Source of the DNA: Clostridia bacterium
Lineage (GTDB): Bacteria > Bacillota > Clostridia > Christensenellales > Borkfalkiaceae
DNA length: 64,000 nt
Assembly (NCBI GenBank): GCA_017522945.1
Contig: JAFWXT010000092.1
Span: 1-64,000, forward strand
Direction: 5' to 3'
In this document: positions 29,498 to 36,570 of the stretch, piece by piece
Layout of the letters: every line of letters begins with the position of its first letter
Position numbering within the stretch: the first letter of the stretch is position 1
Notes under the pieces: generated by a model
Told to the model about the DNA's origin: nothing
Seen by the model: only the letters and a program-made list of their open reading frames with translations
Database searches by the model: none
Made by a program: the position numbers and the translations under genes

Positions 29498-30820
29498 ATG
29501 TTTGATAAAAATCTTTTTAACAAACAAGAAAGTGTTGCCGTTGCCCTTTCGGGCGGAAAAGACTCGGTTTTTTTATTACACCTTCTTTATACTCACGCAA
29601 ACGAACTTGGTATCACTTTAAAAGCGGTTAACGTTGAGCACGGCATTCGCGGTGAAAATTCATTACGCGATACCGAGTTTGTAAAAAAGCTTTGCGAAAA
29701 GTTTGATATCGAGCTTTTATGTTTTAGCGTAAACACTTTGGCCCACTCAAAAGAAAATGGGTATAGCGAAGAACAATCGGCGCGCATTTTGCGTTACGAA
29801 TGTTTTGAAAAGGCAATCAATAGTGGTTTTTGCAATAAAATAGCCACAGCTCACCATTTAAGCGACAACGCCGAAACGGTTTTATTAAACCTATTTAGGG
29901 GAAGCGCTCTTTCAGGGGTTTCAGGCATTCCTAAAACCGCCTTAAACGGTAAAATAATTCGCCCTATACTAAACACTTCAAAACAAACCATTAACGAATA
30001 TATTGAAAAAAACAATTTACCTTTCGTTACCGACGAAAGCAACGAAATTAGCGAATATTCGCGTAACTTTATAAGAAATTGCGTTATACCTATAATCGAG
30101 CAAAGGTTTGAAGGCGCAACTTGTGCAATCAACCGCTTTTCTTCAATTGCGTATGAAGAAAATAAATTACTTGATAATCTTTCGCAAAAACTAATTGAAG
30201 GCAATAGCGTAATTATTCCTAAAAAAGAAGAATTTGCTCTTTTTAAACGCGCTTGTCTTAGCGTGATTAAATCGATGGGTTTTGAAAAGGATTTTACAAA
30301 AACGCACCTTGATAATATTATCGATTTAACCCAAAAGCAAACGGGAAGAAAAATCAACTTAAAATTTGGGCTTACTGCACATAAAAAATCAAATAGAATT
30401 TTATTTATAAAAAACGAACAAATCGACGAAAATATTTATCAAATAATCTTTGACAAACCCATTGAAACAAGCCATTATATAATCAAGTTAGAAACTGTTA
30501 AAGAAGTTACAAAAAAACAATTAACTGCCAAAGACGCTTTATATATCGACAAAGACAAATTACCACAGAGCGCCGTAATTCGCACCAAAAAAACGGGTGA
30601 TGAAATATTTACTTTTGGCAAAAAGCAAATAACTGTTAAAAAATTTTTTACCGACAAAAAAATAGATAGCACAGTGAACAAACACCTACCGTTAATAGCC
30701 GTTGATAAGGATATTTTGGCTGTTTTAACGGTTGATATTTCACAAAAACTTGCGGTGGATGAAAATACCACTAAAATAATAAAACTTACCGCAGAGAAAA
30801 AAGGAGAGCACCATGTATAA
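29498..30820 (+). CDS. tilS: tRNA(Ile)-lysidine synthetase
   Basis: 440 aa. PP-loop SGGKDS at residues 18-23, NVEHGIRGENSLRDTEFV, TAHHLSDNAETVLLNLFRGS and a C-terminal TilS domain (RTKKTGDEIFTFGKK). Converts C34 of tRNA-Ile2 to lysidine so that it reads AUA. No Shine-Dalgarno precedes the ATG, and a promoter abuts it. No other Met lies near enough to give an intact PP-loop. It overlaps hpt by eight bases; tilS-hpt-(ftsH) is a conserved Firmicute order. Confidence 0.95.
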   Translation: MFDKNLFNKQESVAVALSGGKDSVFLLHLLYTHANELGITLKAVNVEHGIRGENSLRDTEFVKKLCEKFDIELLCFSVNTLAHSKENGYSEEQSARILRYECFEKAINSGFCNKIATAHHLSDNAETVLLNLFRGSALSGVSGIPKTALNGKIIRPILNTSKQTINEYIEKNNLPFVTDESNEISEYSRNFIRNCVIPIIEQRFEGATCAINRFSSIAYEENKLLDNLSQKLIEGNSVIIPKKEEFALFKRACLSVIKSMGFEKDFTKTHLDNIIDLTQKQTGRKINLKFGLTAHKKSNRILFIKNEQIDENIYQIIFDKPIETSHYIIKLETVKEVTKKQLTAKDALYIDKDKLPQSAVIRTKKTGDEIFTFGKKQITVKKFFTDKKIDSTVNKHLPLIAVDKDILAVLTVDISQKLAVDENTTKIIKLTAEKKGEHHV

Positions 30821-31349
30821 CCAACTTGAAAGAATTTTGTTTTCCAAAGAGCAACTTGAAAAACGCGTAAAAGAACTTGGCGCAACACTAAGCAACGACT
30901 ATAAAGATAAAAACCCATTACTTATTTGCATTTTAAAAGGAAGCACGCTTTTTTACGCCGATTTAGTTAGAGCAATGGATATTCATCTTAATTTTGACTT
31001 TATGGCTGTTAGCAGTTACGGCGCAGAAACTCGTTCTTCGGGCGAAGTGAAAATGATAAAAGACCTTGACTGCTCTATCGCCGACCGCCACGTTATAATA
31101 GTTGAAGATATTGTAGATACGGGCTTTACCTTAAAATATTTAACAAAATTATTATGCGCGCGCAAACCTGCATCATTGAAGATATGCACTCTTTTAAACA
31201 AACCAAGTCGCCGTGAAGTTGATTTAACGCCCGACTACGTTGGTTTTGAAGTAGGTAATCACTTCGTTGTTGGTTATGGGCTTGATTACGATGAAAAGTT
31301 TAGAAATTTACCCGAAATAGGCGTTTTAAAAGAGGAAGTTTATAAATAA
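30813..31349 (+). CDS. hpt: Hypoxanthine phosphoribosyltransferase
   Basis: 178 aa. ILKGSTLFYADLVRAM PPi loop, flexible loop SSYGAETRSSG, PRPP motif VIIVEDIVDTGFTL and PDYVGFEVGNHFVVGYGLDY base-binding segment are all present. Salvages hypoxanthine and guanine to IMP and GMP. AAGGAGAG site within the end of tilS; the DHH gene starts one base after its stop. Confidence 0.96.
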   Translation: MYNQLERILFSKEQLEKRVKELGATLSNDYKDKNPLLICILKGSTLFYADLVRAMDIHLNFDFMAVSSYGAETRSSGEVKMIKDLDCSIADRHVIIVEDIVDTGFTLKYLTKLLCARKPASLKICTLLNKPSRREVDLTPDYVGFEVGNHFVVGYGLDYDEKFRNLPEIGVLKEEVYK

Positions 31350-31350
31350 A

Positions 31351-32286
31351 ATGTTTAACGAAATTCTTAAGCAAATTAAAAATCACGATACTATAATAAT
31401 ACACCGCCACTCTAAGCCCGACGGTGACGCTCTTGGCTCGCAAATAGGCTTAAAGCATCTTATTAAGCACAACTTCCCCGATAAAAAAGTATTTGTTGTT
31501 GGAGATATGACCGAGCGCTATTCTTTTATTAACGATTGCGTTATGGATGAAATTGATGATAGCGTATATAACGGCGCACTCGCCTTTGTTTTAGACCTTT
31601 CTGCACCGCATTTGGTAAGCGACGAAAGGTATAAACTTGCCAAAACTACTATACGTTTTGACCACCATCTTTTTATTGAAAAATTTTGCGATATCGAATT
31701 TACCGACAGTAGTTTTGAAAGCTGTGCAGGGCTTATTGCTTACTTTGCAAAAAGCTGTAATCTTTTATTAAACGCGCAAAGCGCAAGCGCGCTATACACA
31801 GGAATGGTTACCGATTCGGGGCGTTTTAGATACGATTCAACTACTTCACGCACCTTTGAAGTTGCATCCTTTTTACTAACAGTTCCTTTTTCTTTAACTG
31901 ACATTTACGTAAACCTTTATGCCGATGATTTCGAGTTTATAAAACTTCGCGCAAGCTTTATTTTAAAAATCAATTTTACCGATAAAAAGGTTGCGTATAT
32001 TTACACTACTAAAGAAGAAATGGCTGAGCTTAATAAAGATAGCTTTACTATTTCGCGCGGAATGGTTAACACAATGTCGGATTTAAAAGGCGTTGATATT
32101 TGGGTTAACTTTACCGAAGCCGACGGTGTTGTTCTTTGCGAAATTCGTTCGTCGAAATACAATATTAATCCTATTGCGGTTAAATACGGCGGTGGCGGGC
32201 ACGCTAAAGCAAGCGGAGCAACCCTACCTGACAAGCAAACCGCTATGGCTTTACTTAACGACTTAAACGACTTAATTGTAGAATAA
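31351..32286 (+). CDS. DHH-family phosphoesterase (NrnA-like), copy 1
   Basis: 311 aa. HRHSKPDGDALGSQIGL (motif I), LDLSAPHLVSD (motif II), FDHH (motif III) and a DHHA1 domain ending in KYGGGGHAKASGATL. NrnA-type enzymes degrade nanoRNA and pAp or linear cyclic-dinucleotide products. It directly follows hpt and has a divergent paralogue at 33243; an inserted nuclease gene and repeats separate the two. Confidence 0.9.
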   Translation: MFNEILKQIKNHDTIIIHRHSKPDGDALGSQIGLKHLIKHNFPDKKVFVVGDMTERYSFINDCVMDEIDDSVYNGALAFVLDLSAPHLVSDERYKLAKTTIRFDHHLFIEKFCDIEFTDSSFESCAGLIAYFAKSCNLLLNAQSASALYTGMVTDSGRFRYDSTTSRTFEVASFLLTVPFSLTDIYVNLYADDFEFIKLRASFILKINFTDKKVAYIYTTKEEMAELNKDSFTISRGMVNTMSDLKGVDIWVNFTEADGVVLCEIRSSKYNINPIAVKYGGGGHAKASGATLPDKQTAMALLNDLNDLIVE

Positions 32287-32295
32287 TAACACAAA

Positions 32296-32418
32296 GGCTC
32301 CTTCTAGGAGGGAGCTGGCGCGTATGCGCCTGAGGGAGGGTGCCATTTACGTGCTTTTAATTCTTTCGCTTTCTCCTTCCACCGCTAAAGCGGTCCCCCT
32401 TCCTCCCGGAGAAAGGCT
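32296..32418 (+). repeat. Fold-back repeat R1
   Basis: About 123 bp, starting GGCTCCTT and ending with CCTTCCTCCCGGAGAAAGGCT; the ends are imperfect inverted copies. Internal CCACCGCTAAAGCGGTCC is a hairpin. The gap 32287-32638 holds only R1, a 40-bp spacer and R2. Confidence 0.88.
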
Positions 32419-32458
32419 TGGAAAATTTTGCTTAGAATTACAATATTAGTATAAAATA

Positions 32459-32581
32459 GGCTCCTTCGGGGAGGGAGCTGGCGTGCAAACGCCTGAGGGA
32501 GAGTGCCATTTACGTGCTTTTAATTTTTTTGCTTTCTCCTTCCACCGCTGAAGCGGTCCCCCTTCCTCCCGGAGGAAGGCT
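32459..32581 (+). repeat. Fold-back repeat R2
   Basis: 123 bp, very similar to R1, same orientation. Bases 32368-32581 (end of R1, spacer and R2) match 35017-35230 at equal length (214 bp), so a compound unit was duplicated. Confidence 0.88.
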
Positions 32582-32638
32582 AATTTATATAAGCAAAATA
32601 CAAAAAATATAGTTAATTAAAAAGGTTTTATATAAATA

Positions 32639-33016
32639 ATGTCGCTTGATTATAATAAAAAAAATATAACACTTGCAAAAAATTTACGTAAGAATGCAAC
32701 GCCTCAAGAGAATCATTTATGGTATGACTTTTTATCAAAATATGATATTAGGTTTCAGCGACAAAAAGCAATAGATAATTTTATTGCAGACTTTTATTGT
32801 CATAAAGCAAAACTTGTTATAGAAATTGACGGTTCGCAACATTATACAGAAAAGGGGAAAAGTCAAGACTTTTTTAGAACCGAGATTTTAGAGGAATATA
32901 ATTTACAAGTTATACGATTTACAAACTTCGATATTGATTCCAACTTTCAGGGCGTATGCGAGTACATCGACAAAGTAGTAAAGCAAAATATTATAAACTA
33001 TAAAAAGCGAATTTAA
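32639..33016 (+). CDS. DUF559/Vsr-like endonuclease-domain protein
   Basis: 125 aa. LRKNATPQENHLWYDFL, FIADFYCHKAKLVIEIDGSQHY and VIRFTNFDI match DUF559, a PD-(D/E)xK-like fold related to very-short-patch repair endonucleases. D51, E62 and D64 with K59/H68 form a plausible active site. There is no clear ribosome binding site (weak AAAGG). It splits the hpt-DHH-DHH-surE run and is bracketed by fold-back repeats R2 (58 bases upstream) and R3 (5 bases downstream), all in one orientation. Probably mobile or a repeat-linked nuclease; biological role unknown. Confidence 0.85.
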   Translation: MSLDYNKKNITLAKNLRKNATPQENHLWYDFLSKYDIRFQRQKAIDNFIADFYCHKAKLVIEIDGSQHYTEKGKSQDFFRTEILEEYNLQVIRFTNFDIDSNFQGVCEYIDKVVKQNIINYKKRI

Positions 33017-33021
33017 GTTAA

Positions 33022-33143
33022 GGCTCCTTCGGGGAGGGAGCTGGCGCGTATGCGACTGAGGGAGAATGCTTTTAAATATAATTTAATCCTTCGCTTTCTC
33101 CTTCCACCGATAAATCGGTCCCCCTTCCTCCCGGAGGAAGGCT
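33022..33143 (+). repeat. Fold-back repeat R3
   Basis: 122 bp, starting five bases after the DUF559 stop. It has the same GGCTCC...GAAGGCT ends as R2, but the centre differs (AATGCTTTTAAATATAATTT) and the hairpin is CCACCGATAAATCGGTCC, a compensated change that keeps pairing. Confidence 0.88.
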
Positions 33144-33242
33144 AAAACGAATAAGCCAATTTATCAAAAATACAACTAATTCAAAAAGTTAAAAAACAAA
33201 AACGGCTTTGTAATAATACCAAAGCCCAAAAAGGTATAAAAT

Positions 33243-34226
33243 ATGAATGAACAAATAATGCAAAGTATTTTGCAAAAAATTAAAGATTACCAAAGTATAA
33301 TGATATTCCGCCATATCCGTATGGATGGCGACTGCACGGGCGCAACAAAGGGCTTTAAGGATATTTTAACCGCAAGCTTTCCTAAAAAGGATATTTATTT
33401 AATTGACCCAAGCCAAAGCAGTGAATTTTTAGCCTTTTTAGGTGGCGATGATGAAGAAGTTAGTGATGAAATTTACGCAAAATCGCTTGCAATCGTTTTA
33501 GATACCGCTTCGCTTGACAGAATATCTAATAAAAAATATGTGCTTTGCAAAGAGATTATAAAAATTGACCACCATATAAATATTACGCCTTATGGCGATA
33601 TTAGTTGGGTTGAAGAAGAACGCTCTTCTACTTGCGAAATGATAACCCACTTTTATCAAACCTTTAAAGATGAACTTAAAATAACTAAAGAGGGTGCTAA
33701 ATATCTTTTCACGGGTATGGTAACAGATTCGGGGCGTTTTAGATACCGCGAAGTTTCGGGCGAAACAATGCGCCTTGCGGCAAGCCTTTTAGATATAGGT
33801 ATCGACACCGACACCCTTTACGCGCACCTTTATATGCAAAGTAAAGAAAGCATGATTTATAAGGGCTATATTTTAAAAAATATGAAGGTAACCGAAAATG
33901 GTGTTGCATACTTTTTCGTATCAAACAAAACACAGGCAAAACTTGGTTTATCGCGCGAAGATGCAAGCGCGGGTGTTTCTGCCCTTGAAAATATTGAAAA
34001 CTGCCTTATTTGGATTGCTTTTATCGAAAACGAAGATAAATCGATTCGCGTGCGTTTGCGCTCACGCTTTATAACCGTTAACGATATAGCCGAAAAATAT
34101 CACGGTGGTGGGCATTCTTGCGCGAGTGGCGCAACCGTTTATAGCAAAAAAGAATTAAAATCTTTAATTAATGATGCAGATGCTAAACTAAAAGAATATA
34201 AAGAAAATAACGAGGGCTGGCTATGA
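33243..34226 (+). CDS. DHH-family phosphoesterase (NrnA-like), copy 2
   Basis: 327 aa. FRHIRMDGDCTGATKGFKD replaces the usual RPDGDAxGS motif I (the Asp-Gly-Asp is kept), LDTASLDRIS is motif II, IDHH motif III, and the protein ends with YHGGGHSCASGATV (DHHA1). It is divergent from copy 1, suggesting an old duplication and different substrates. It overlaps surE by ATGA. Confidence 0.9.
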   Translation: MNEQIMQSILQKIKDYQSIMIFRHIRMDGDCTGATKGFKDILTASFPKKDIYLIDPSQSSEFLAFLGGDDEEVSDEIYAKSLAIVLDTASLDRISNKKYVLCKEIIKIDHHINITPYGDISWVEEERSSTCEMITHFYQTFKDELKITKEGAKYLFTGMVTDSGRFRYREVSGETMRLAASLLDIGIDTDTLYAHLYMQSKESMIYKGYILKNMKVTENGVAYFFVSNKTQAKLGLSREDASAGVSALENIENCLIWIAFIENEDKSIRVRLRSRFITVNDIAEKYHGGGHSCASGATVYSKKELKSLINDADAKLKEYKENNEGWL

Positions 34227-34954
34227 GAATACTTATAACCAATGACGACGGAATTAACGCTCCTGCCCTTAAACCGCTTGCCGAGTGGGCTAAAAAGCAC
34301 GGCGAAGTTACGGTTGTTGCGCCAAAGGTTGAGCAAAGCGGAAAAAGCCACGGCATTGAAATTATAAAGCCTATGGAAATTAACAAGGTTGATTTTATTA
34401 GCGGAGTTGAAGCATACTCGGTTGATTCTACCCCGGCAGATTGCGTAAGATTTGGTATAATTGGGCTTAAACGCGATTACGATTTGGTTATTTCGGGCAT
34501 AAACCGCGGATATAATTTGGGTAAAGACATTGTTTATTCGGGAACTGTTGGCGCAATTTTTGAAGCTAGTGGACTTGGCGTTAAATCGGTAGCACTTTCA
34601 ACTGCTCCCGATAGTTTAGAAAATGCGCTTTCACTTTTAGATGAAGTTTACGAATTTTTTATAACCAATAAATTGCTTGATAAAAACCCAATTTACAACG
34701 TAAACTTGCCAAGTTTAAAATGTAAAGGAATAAAAATAACTAAAACGGGTGGCGGTTATTATTCGGATGATTTTAAAGAGGTTTCGCCAAATATGTTTAT
34801 ACAAGTTGGCAAAATGATTTGGGATGATAAAAAGGATATGAATATTGATACCGATGCCGCAATGCACGGCTACGTATCGATTACCCCCCTTTCGAGCGAA
34901 CGTACTAAAATTGATCTTTATGAACAGTTAAAGATTTTAAACGATAAAATTTAA
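34223..34954 (+). CDS. surE: 5'/3'-nucleotidase SurE
   Basis: 243 aa. MRILITNDDGINAPALKPLAEW is the diagnostic metal-binding start (NDDG); APKVEQSGKSHGI, DSTPADCVRFGI and ISGINRGYNLGKDIVYSGTVGAIFEA complete the SurE pattern. Dephosphorylates nucleoside monophosphates. Coupled to DHH copy 2; the two together could finish degradation of short oligonucleotides to nucleosides. Confidence 0.96.
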   Translation: MRILITNDDGINAPALKPLAEWAKKHGEVTVVAPKVEQSGKSHGIEIIKPMEINKVDFISGVEAYSVDSTPADCVRFGIIGLKRDYDLVISGINRGYNLGKDIVYSGTVGAIFEASGLGVKSVALSTAPDSLENALSLLDEVYEFFITNKLLDKNPIYNVNLPSLKCKGIKITKTGGGYYSDDFKEVSPNMFIQVGKMIWDDKKDMNIDTDAAMHGYVSITPLSSERTKIDLYEQLKILNDKI

Positions 34955-35016
34955 TATTTATATTAACCTATAAATGCGACCTAAAAAAGATCGCATTTTT
35001 ATTTTTGTATATTTTT

Positions 35017-35067
35017 GCTTTCTCCTTCCACCGCTGAAGCGGTCCCCCTTCCTCCCGGAGGACGGCT
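35017..35067 (+). repeat. Partial fold-back repeat R4
   Basis: The 3' half only (GCTTTCTCCTTCCACCGCTG to GGACGGCT), followed by the same 40-bp spacer as between R1 and R2. The gap 34955-35381 contains R4, the spacer, R5 and the Fic promoter. Confidence 0.85.
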
Positions 35068-35107
35068 TGGAAAATTTTGCTTAGATTTACATTATTAGTA
35101 TAAAATA

Positions 35108-35230
35108 GGCTCCTTCGGGGAGGGAGCTGGCGCGTATGCGCCTGAGGGAGAGTGCCATTTACGTGCTTTTATTTTTTTTACTTTCTCCTTCCACCGCTAA
35201 AGCGGTCCCCCTTCCTCCTGGAGGACGGCT
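35108..35230 (+). repeat. Fold-back repeat R5
   Basis: 123 bp, nearly identical to R2 except the middle T-rich stretch and a GGACGGCT end. Forms the right half of the 214-bp duplicated module 35017-35230. Confidence 0.88.
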
Positions 35231-35314
35231 TTTTGTGACACTTCACTAAGGATGACAATACTTTGTATTGATGAACTAATTTAATTTCTAAAATATTAAA
35301 CTTTGTAAAAATTA

Positions 35315-35343
35315 TTGAATAATTTGATTATTTATGATATACT
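35315..35343 (+). promoter_or_regulatory. Promoter for the Fic gene
   Basis: TTGAAT (35315-35320), 17-bp spacer ending TGA, TATACT (35338-35343): an extended -10 promoter 38 bases before the ATG. Confidence 0.6.
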
Positions 35344-35381
35344 ATATCAAGTAATATATTAAAAAGTTAGCAAGGGGCAAA

Positions 35382-36236
35382 ATGATTAAAACTTCTATTA
35401 GATTTTTTAACAATATTCCCGTTCGTTCAGTTTGGGATGAAGAAACTTCTAAATGGTGGCTATGTGCCGTTGATATTATAGAATCTCTTTTGTTAAGCAA
35501 ATCACCGCGAAAATATTGGAATACTTTAAAAAGCAGAAACAATCAGTTGTCCTCAATTTGTAGACAACTGAAACTAACTGCAAAAGACGGCAAAAAATAT
35601 TTAACCGACGTTATTGATGAAGAAGGGTTAAATTTACTTATAGCAATTTTCCCAAGTAAAAAATCTGAGTTGTTTTTAAAATGGATTAAAACAAAGGGAA
35701 CTTCTATCGATGAACAAAGCAAAAACAAAGCTTACGAAATGTTTGAAAACGGAATTATTGGCGATATTGAAGTTGGCACTACAAATGGATTAAAGCAAAT
35801 TCACGCTTATCTTTTTGGTGGTTTATACGATTTCGCTGGTCAAATTAGAAAATTAAATATTTCAAAGGGCGGTTTTGTATTTGCTAGTGTTGCCTTTTTA
35901 GACCAAACGCTTGCAAGCATTGACGCAATGGCTGAAGAAACTATCGAACAAATTGTTAAAAAATACGTTGAAATGAACGTTGCACATCCTTTTATGGAAG
36001 GCAACGGTAGAACAACTAGAATTTGGTTAGACCTTATTTTGAAAAAAAATCTTTCTGTTTGCGTTGATTGGAGTAAAATTGACAAAAACCAATATTTAAA
36101 TGCAATGAAATTAAGCGTTGTTGATTATACGTATATTTTAAATCTTATAAAAAACGCTTTAACCAATAAGATAAACGACCGCGAAGTTTTTATGAAAGGT
36201 ATCGATTATTCATACTATTATGAAGAAGAAAATTAA
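35382..36236 (+). CDS. BRO-N/Fic-domain fusion protein
   Basis: 284 aa. Residues 1-105 resemble a BRO-N/phage antirepressor-type domain (RSVWDEETSKWWLCAVDII, RKYWNTLKSR, AIFPSKKSELFLKWI). Residues 120-270 are a Fic domain with flap LFGGLYDFAGQIR and HPFMEGNGRTTR (202-213), the intact AMPylation motif with His202. Fic enzymes transfer AMP to target hydroxyls. The (S/T)xxxE(G/N) inhibitory helix is not evident and no small antitoxin gene is visible upstream. AAGGGG site and own promoter; bracketed by fold-back repeats. This fits a stand-alone accessory gene. Confidence 0.88.
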   Translation: MIKTSIRFFNNIPVRSVWDEETSKWWLCAVDIIESLLLSKSPRKYWNTLKSRNNQLSSICRQLKLTAKDGKKYLTDVIDEEGLNLLIAIFPSKKSELFLKWIKTKGTSIDEQSKNKAYEMFENGIIGDIEVGTTNGLKQIHAYLFGGLYDFAGQIRKLNISKGGFVFASVAFLDQTLASIDAMAEETIEQIVKKYVEMNVAHPFMEGNGRTTRIWLDLILKKNLSVCVDWSKIDKNQYLNAMKLSVVDYTYILNLIKNALTNKINDREVFMKGIDYSYYYEEEN

Positions 36237-36253
36237 AATTTTATAGCTAATGC

Positions 36254-36285
36254 AAAAGGCTCCTTTTTAAAAGGAGCCTTTTGAT
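36254..36285. terminator. Bidirectional terminator after the Fic gene
   Basis: AAAAGGCTCCTTTT / AAAAGGAGCCTTTT, a 14-bp perfect dyad. Its centre GGCTCCTTT resembles the left end of the fold-back repeats. Confidence 0.8.
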
Positions 36286-36338
36286 TTAATCTTTAGGTTA
36301 TACCTACGCGTTAAAATGTTATCCTTAGTAATAACAAT

Positions 36339-36476
36339 GTCATTCTAAGCGGAGCGTATGCGTAGTCGAAGGATTGAACACTGTCATCCTGAGCAACGTC
36401 GAAGGATCTTGTTCGAGCGAAAGCGAGTTATAACTATAATTCAAGCGAGACCTTTCGACTGATGCTCAAGGTGACA
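36339..36476. repeat. Dispersed intergenic repeat, TGTCATCCTGAGC type
   Basis: TGTCATTCTAAGC at 36339, a second TGTCATCCTGAGC at 36382-36394, and an inverted arm GCTCAAGGTGACA at 36464-36476 (11 of 13 pair). Inside are CGAAGGAT and CCTTTCG, which also pair. Similar GTCATCCTGAG elements are common intergenic repeats in gut bacterial genomes. Decayed pieces occur near 11700 and 35236. Confidence 0.7.
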
Positions 36477-36493
36477 CAAAAACGGTGTATAAC

Positions 36494-36544
36494 GCTTTCT
36501 CCTTCCACCGCTGAAGCGGTCCCCCTTCCTCCCAGAGGACGGCT
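36494..36544 (+). repeat. Partial fold-back repeat R6
   Basis: 3' half only, GCTTTCTCCTTCCACCGCTG to AGGACGGCT, as in R4. It follows directly on the TGTCATCC repeat, so the gap 36237-36640 is a patchwork of repeats. Confidence 0.82.
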
Positions 36545-36570
36545 TTTTTGGGGGGTGGTTTATAAAAGAA

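Follow-up and report, generated by a model that had tools for sequence, protein, structure and literature searches.

The locus and its repeats

The window (the whole 64-kb stretch of DNA analysed) contains an hpt-DHH-DHH-surE operon that is interrupted by a gene for a 125-aa DUF559 protein (PF04480, E=3e-27). Three repeats of ~124 bp each, R1-R3, surround this operon-splitting gene, all on the + strand. Both the gene order and the shared orientation agree with the initial annotation, which also correctly placed R1 and R2 upstream and R3 downstream of the gene, although R3 begins about 4, not five, bases after the stop codon. Its inventory of R1-R3 stands but overlooked a further full copy (35107-35231), half copies and a 229-bp duplication. 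The features of the locus are as follows.

30813-31349, hpt gene
31351-32286, first DHH/DHHA1 gene
32287-33242 (strand not applicable), 956-bp block between the two DHH genes, which abut in sister species G013
32295-32419, + strand, R1, inverted doublet of two ~50-nt units (32295-32341, +; 32370-32418, -)
32458-32582, + strand, R2, doublet 56 bp 5' of the DUF559 gene (units 32458-32504, +; 32533-32581, -)
32639-33016, + strand, DUF559 gene, 125 aa, predicted EDxHD/Vsr-like nuclease fold (PF04480 E=3e-27; AlphaFold pLDDT 88; best PDB matches 3hrl and I-Bth0305I 3r3p)
33020-33144, + strand, R3, doublet ~4 bp 3' of the DUF559 stop codon (units 33021-33067, +; 33095-33143, -)
33243-34226, second DHH/DHHA1 gene
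34223-34954, SurE gene
35013-35069, + strand, half doublet that, with a 45-bp linker and 35107-35231, forms a copy of the R1-linker-R2 block
35107-35231, + strand, additional complete doublet, 5' of a Fic gene
36493-36545, + strand, half doublet (one unit)

The duplicated block, at ~35000-35231, is a 229-bp, 92% identical copy of the 3' half of R1, the 45-bp linker and R2. The Fic/DOC gene, which carries a BRO-N domain (35382-36236), is also bracketed, by the doublet at 35107-35231 and the half doublet at 36493-36545. A second repeat type (GTCATTCTAAGCGGAGCG.., GTCATCCTGAGCAACGTCGAAGGATCTT) occupies 36340-36475, directly before that half doublet, and GTCATTCTGAGCG repeats resembling it also lie near the DUF559 loci L013 and L028.

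The first half of R1-R3 reads, on the + strand, AGGCTCCTTC-GGGGAGGGAGC and then a second hairpin (GGCGCGTATGCGCC, TGAGGGAG), followed by an AT-rich spacer; the second half is an inverted, non-identical counterpart (CTCCTTCC, ACCGCTGAAGCGGT, CCCCTTCCTCCCGGAGGAAGGCT). Each repeat is a REPIN-like doublet of two related units in inverted orientation. The unit measures ~50 nt and comprises an outer hairpin, an inner hairpin and GAGGGA, with the consensus AGCCTCC...GAGGGAG. The ends are imperfect inverted repeats and the inner hairpin carries compensated bases (ACCGCTAAAGCGGT in R1, ACCGATAAATCGGT in R3), both as first noted. In a covariance model of 26 related units with 12 pairs, 10 of the 12 change on both sides (0/500 shuffles), and the covariation score is 0.43 versus 0.20 in shuffles. 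This model finds ten strong matches in the 64-kb window (32.8-52.6 bits), all within 32295-36544. Folded as DNA, single repeat copies are moderately better than shuffles (z -0.3 to -2.8), and an Rfam search of the repeats matched no known family.

The nuclease

The AlphaFold model of the window protein (pLDDT 88) matches a Neisseria gonorrhoeae structure (3hrl), the catalytic domain of I-Bth0305I (3r3p; E=4e-4, TMt 0.80) and mitoribosomal proteins, and more weakly Vsr. The predicted fold is that of the homing endonuclease I-Bth0305I and Vsr, unlike RAYT. Residues E24, D51, E62 and D64 are invariant and H68 nearly so, a pattern that fits a predicted active nuclease of the EDxHD/PD-(D/E)XK type. 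Previous work assigned DUF559 to the EDxHD homing family (PMC9403480) and listed YcjD as PD-(D/E)XK (PMC1189080). The neighbours of the window gene are DHH genes, with no methylase among them.

Insertion into compact operons

In sister species G013, whose second DHH protein is 71% identical to that of the window, the two DHH genes abut (TAATTATG) with neither repeat nor DUF559. By this comparison with one sister species, the 956-bp block of nuclease gene and doublets is probably an insertion into a compact operon, the direction being deduced from operon compactness. Likewise, genome G099 carries a DUF559 gene and one unit between ylxM and ffh, where sister species at 91-93% identity (G168, G155) have about 35 bp and no unit. 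Insertion polymorphism is also seen at a topoisomerase/gyrase gene junction in genus g10, where DUF559 is present in 9 of 40 species while another 10 have just 9-49 bp; DUF559 orientation is uniform there, so a single old insertion followed by losses is possible at this junction. Escherichia coli ycjD was considered as another occupied/empty pair and rejected: the gene occurs in about 3362 of 5426 genomes, and strains that lack it carry an efflux operon at the site (eef; PMC12817139), which is therefore not a clean empty site.

Association of DUF559 genes with repeat units

The association was assessed at 80 DUF559 loci from public genomes, nearly all Clostridia and mostly MAG contigs, across which unit distribution partly tracks host relatedness. 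Among the 77 loci with a complete, testable gene, a sequence profile of the unit placed a unit within 300 bp of DUF559 in 72, and in 60 of the 64 loci not used for model building; the enrichment within 300 bp that the initial annotation had proposed to look for is thereby present, since the same was true of only 8% of control ORFs of 80-200 aa and 6% of longer ones in the same loci. Unit density was 2.14/kb within 500 bp of DUF559 versus 0.056/kb beyond 2 kb, a 38-fold difference. A convergent unit pair enclosed 35% of DUF559 genes, compared with 0.2-0.4% of control ORFs. Furthermore, a model-free comparison of left and right 350-bp flanks gave scores of at least 32 at 56% of 90 DUF559 loci versus 2.3% of 3892 shifted windows.

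Within the window's family, units lie no more than 1.5 kb from each of the 24 standalone DUF559 genes (E <= 0.1), so the genes of relatives are not consistently free of repeats. Nor are repeats equally abundant without the gene: units occur in 24 of 25 family genomes with standalone DUF559 versus 34 of 126 without (Fisher p about 5e-11, indicative only since these genomes are kin). In the same family, neither the two Vsr genes nor the three DUF559 matches that were weak or fused have units. The two Vsr-like genes (L035, L038) had come up as weak DUF559 matches in DUF559-poor genomes and were set aside; the Vsr gene at L035 directly adjoins a dcm-type methyltransferase.

The association has exceptions in both directions. 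The sequence profile found no unit in 5 of the 77 loci and found units on one side only in some, and G054, a family genome with DUF559, gave no unit match in a genome-wide scan. At L014 (in G054) and L011, DUF559 is flanked by different GC-rich palindromes (CCCTCCCCCTCGCTGTGCGAGGGGGAGGG; CGCCTCCCCCCTTTTG..), which receive only weak scores from the unit model and represent further unit families. Conversely, DUF559 was not detected in family genomes G101, G107, G116, G122 and G131 despite 38-39 or more units; these genomes may have a different mobiliser, may have lost the gene recently or may have gaps in their assemblies.

Element architecture

The commonest layout is a unit, the DUF559 gene and an inverted unit (~450 bp in all). 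Convergent unit pairs are bimodal: gene-less pairs have gaps of 1-77 nt and gene-bearing pairs gaps of 340-382 nt, mostly 347-349, with a few at 474-528. Every 340-530-nt insert between convergent units is one DUF559 gene, including pairs of 349-355 nt that were initially scored as gene-less (L094, L068 and a second copy in L056; at L094 and L068 the positions coincide with a DUF559 match). No transposase was found inside unit pairs, and DUF559 is the only gene between ends 340-530 nt apart. Two convergent pairs (gaps of 153 and 885) lack a complete DUF559 gene.

The two ends of gene-bearing pairs differ consistently: the one 5' of the gene has GCCTCC..GGAGGTGGC or GGGGGACCGC, the one 3' of it GGCTCC..GGAGCTGTC. 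The gene-less R1-R3 carry the same two end types around a ~40-nt spacer (~125 bp). A MITE-type deletion origin of the spacers in gene-less doublets was considered and found no support: they do not resemble the DUF559 gene, and the gene-less doublets are therefore not simple deletion derivatives. In the window's subclade (75-80% identical proteins), a complete doublet overlaps or follows the DUF559 stop codon. The layout of the window, with the gene between complete doublets, is a minority form; the gene more commonly lies inside a doublet. Tandem arrays also occur beside DUF559, with six units in a row at L074 (10345-10638), and several doublets lie around two DUF559 genes at L056 (5659-10495).

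Mobility

A within-genome duplicate is present in MAG SIG675, in which two loci on different contigs (L041, L042) share a DUF559-doublet segment of 659 bp at 97% identity with an identical DUF559 gene; outside this segment, blastn over about 2.6 kb found no similarity beyond 42 bp next to its 3' end. Similar unit-gene-unit sandwiches have different left neighbours at L072, L083, L085, L101, L105 and L117. A right neighbour of about 100 bp or more is common to L072, L083, L084, L085, L097, L101 and L039, most of which differ on the left, as if a larger segment had moved or a site were preferred; at L072 it leads to an apparent reverse-strand helix-turn-helix gene. The flanks of insertions are AT-rich. 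The target duplications that the initial annotation had suggested seeking were not detected, with no excess of direct flank matches (2.45 versus 2.26 +/- 0.12 for shuffled partners).

Beyond Clostridia

Plasmid and phage records yielded 17 standalone or near-standalone DUF559 loci, 11 of which reached a flank similarity of at least 34 (shifted controls 2.6%); at one of the 11, L134, the match is purely AT-rich. Four Deinococcus loci have inverted flanks scoring 41-115, and two Sphingomonas, one Qipengyuania and one Azospirillum locus score 52-55; repeats at Picosynechococcus DUF559 are mostly in direct orientation (60, 155). In Deinococcus, DUF559 lies within paa or hpa operons and has long inverted flanks (L130, L135, L227, L228). 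In Sphingomonas it separates sufB from sufC and, elsewhere, transhydrogenase subunits from each other. The unit model, although built from Firmicutes, matches DNA adjoining DUF559 in Sinorhizobium (32.9 bits), Sphingomonas (30.8) and Deinococcus (25.6). Flank architecture was negative or weak at L127, L129, L131 and L133, and likewise at L132, where an array lies to one side, and at L231, whose units are confined to one side.

In E. coli, an inverted GC-rich repeat lies 3' of ycjD, a 39-nt, 90% copy of the gene's own 3' end lies downstream (L137, 2074-2218), and DNA similar to the 3' flank recurs within genomes (median of 13 sites). At L046, a 3'-end fragment of DUF559 is duplicated downstream; it spans 43 aa and shares 65% identity with the window protein. 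On Synechocystis and Pseudanabaena plasmids (L127, L128), DUF559 domains occur in BREX-like defence neighbourhoods, without repeat architecture at L127; this is a distinct use of the domain.

Interpretation

A tiny nuclease gene next to or within paired fold-back repeats, recurring in nearly all gut-Clostridia genomes examined and in several other phyla, points to a minimal DNA element that spreads itself and is of a kind not described before. Our preferred reading, to which we give a probability of roughly 60%, is that DUF559 and its flanking fold-back units form a minimal mobile element working like REPIN/RAYT. The inverted doublet would mark the element ends, which in the commonest form would enclose only the nuclease gene (left unit, ATG-DUF559, right unit); gene-less doublets of the R1-R3 type (left unit, ~40-nt spacer, right unit) would be mobilised in trans by the nuclease, and in the window's subclade the gene would travel with a complete doublet alongside. 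The EDxHD nuclease may recognise the hairpin-folded unit in single-stranded or cruciform DNA and nick at the element ends, after which host repair or replication could place a copy between genes at AT-rich positions, leaving no target duplication. The data show the architecture of the element, its covariation, the association with DUF559, a duplicate within one genome and recurrent insertion; that the nuclease moves the doublets is what we infer. The odds seem evenly balanced for the wider proposal that a hitherto unrecognised class of minimal mobile DNA, present in at least four bacterial phyla, depends on standalone DUF559 proteins as its only mobilising enzymes; these would move their own gene and gene-less two-hairpin doublets with no known transposase or recombinase, in convergence with REPIN/RAYT.

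The REPtron-like reading first offered for this locus is strongly supported as anatomy and association, because units are not equally abundant where DUF559 is lacking and the DUF559 genes of relatives are not unit-free. As a mechanism it is less secure, in that DUF559 is unrelated to RAYT, that target duplication was not found and that units persist where no DUF559 was detected. No earlier description linking DUF559 to repeats or mobility was found in the literature searched, which covered few subscription journals.

Alternatively, a free-standing homing endonuclease may cut the spacer of pre-existing gene-less doublets, with repair from the unit-gene-unit form inserting the gene while doublets spread otherwise. 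This ectopic homing is the main rival and could explain why the nearest characterised fold is that of I-Bth0305I, why gene-bearing and gene-less doublets have common ends, why spacers are not derived from the gene, and why the gene so often lies exactly between left and right units. We nevertheless consider it unlikely, since the empty orthologous sites (G013 at DHH-DHH; G168 and G155 at ylxM-ffh; none at strain level) are wholly without units, the gene of the window's subclade lies beside rather than inside a doublet, and the origin of the doublets would be left unexplained.

DUF559 genes could instead be passengers that accumulate with the repeats in the same permissive intergenic sites, the repeats being terminators or moved by an unrelated transposase. 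Units in the 34 of 126 family genomes without DUF559 and the repeated occupation of some target junctions would be expected under this explanation, which is already hard to reconcile with the enrichment (94% for DUF559 versus 8% for other short ORFs in the same loci). The fixed unit-gene-unit geometry with its 347-349-nt gaps, the recurrence of the association in Deinococcota, Cyanobacteriota and Pseudomonadota, and unit pairs that contain no transposase also make it improbable. A defence or toxin-like module, whose nuclease would serve to protect or restrict DNA with the repeats as its regulatory or protection sites, seems more improbable still: the BREX-like plasmid loci and the weak PADLOC matches to restriction-enzyme and Dpd models that point towards it involve fused genes or genes in other contexts, whereas the standalone, unit-linked genes stand by themselves within housekeeping operons (suf, paa, hpa, DHH, ffh) and have no partner genes. 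Least credible is a Vsr-type mismatch repair gene with chance repeats, a reading that the Vsr-like fold would allow and that is already contradicted by Vsr genes of the same family without units, one of two beside a dcm-type methyltransferase, and by the window gene having no methylase neighbour.

Significance and comparison with known systems

The reading of DUF559 and its units as a minimal mobile element provides a testable role for a large family that includes E. coli YcjD and the N. gonorrhoeae structure 3hrl, and a likely agent for the fold-back repeats (GGCTCCCT..GGGAGC) that abound in gut Clostridia. The association also helps annotation: the repeats account for interrupted operons and mark standalone DUF559 genes as mobile, in contrast to genes for repair or restriction.

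Among known systems, MITEs resemble the element in that a short gene-less form shares ends with a gene-bearing one and has inverted terminal repeats; unlike MITEs and insertion sequences, it shows no target duplication, its spacer is unrelated to the gene, and it has no DDE or other known transposase. The window gene differs from Vsr genes such as that at L035 in having no dcm-type methyltransferase beside it. E. coli YcjD belongs to the same family (PF04480) and its gene has an inverted GC-rich repeat downstream, although the literature found draws no link to repeats or mobility. EDxHD homing endonucleases (I-Bth0305I, PDB 3r3p) share the predicted fold, the conserved E24, D51 and H68 and the EDxHD assignment (PMC9403480); however, there is no intron, intein or fixed allelic target here, but many unrelated intergenic sites and fold-back ends.

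The closest likeness in organisation is to REPIN/RAYT (PMC3116915, PMC2817692): palindromic units form inverted doublets around a short spacer, and these are scattered through intergenic DNA; the units cluster around one small nuclease gene and are linked to it in cis; and hairpins show compensatory changes, with target duplication not found. In contrast, the enzyme here is DUF559 (EDxHD/PD-(D/E)XK fold by prediction, PF04480 only) and not a Y1 HUH transposase, the unit has two hairpins and a GAGGGA tail with the gene often within the doublet, and the GTAG/CGTC tag (PMC3733652) is absent from the end of the unit consensus. With an unrelated enzyme and no RAYT tag, the element does not belong to REPIN/RAYT. 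If the nuclease does move the doublets, it would represent a second, non-homologous solution to the REPIN/RAYT problem, achieved with an enzyme of ~120 residues.
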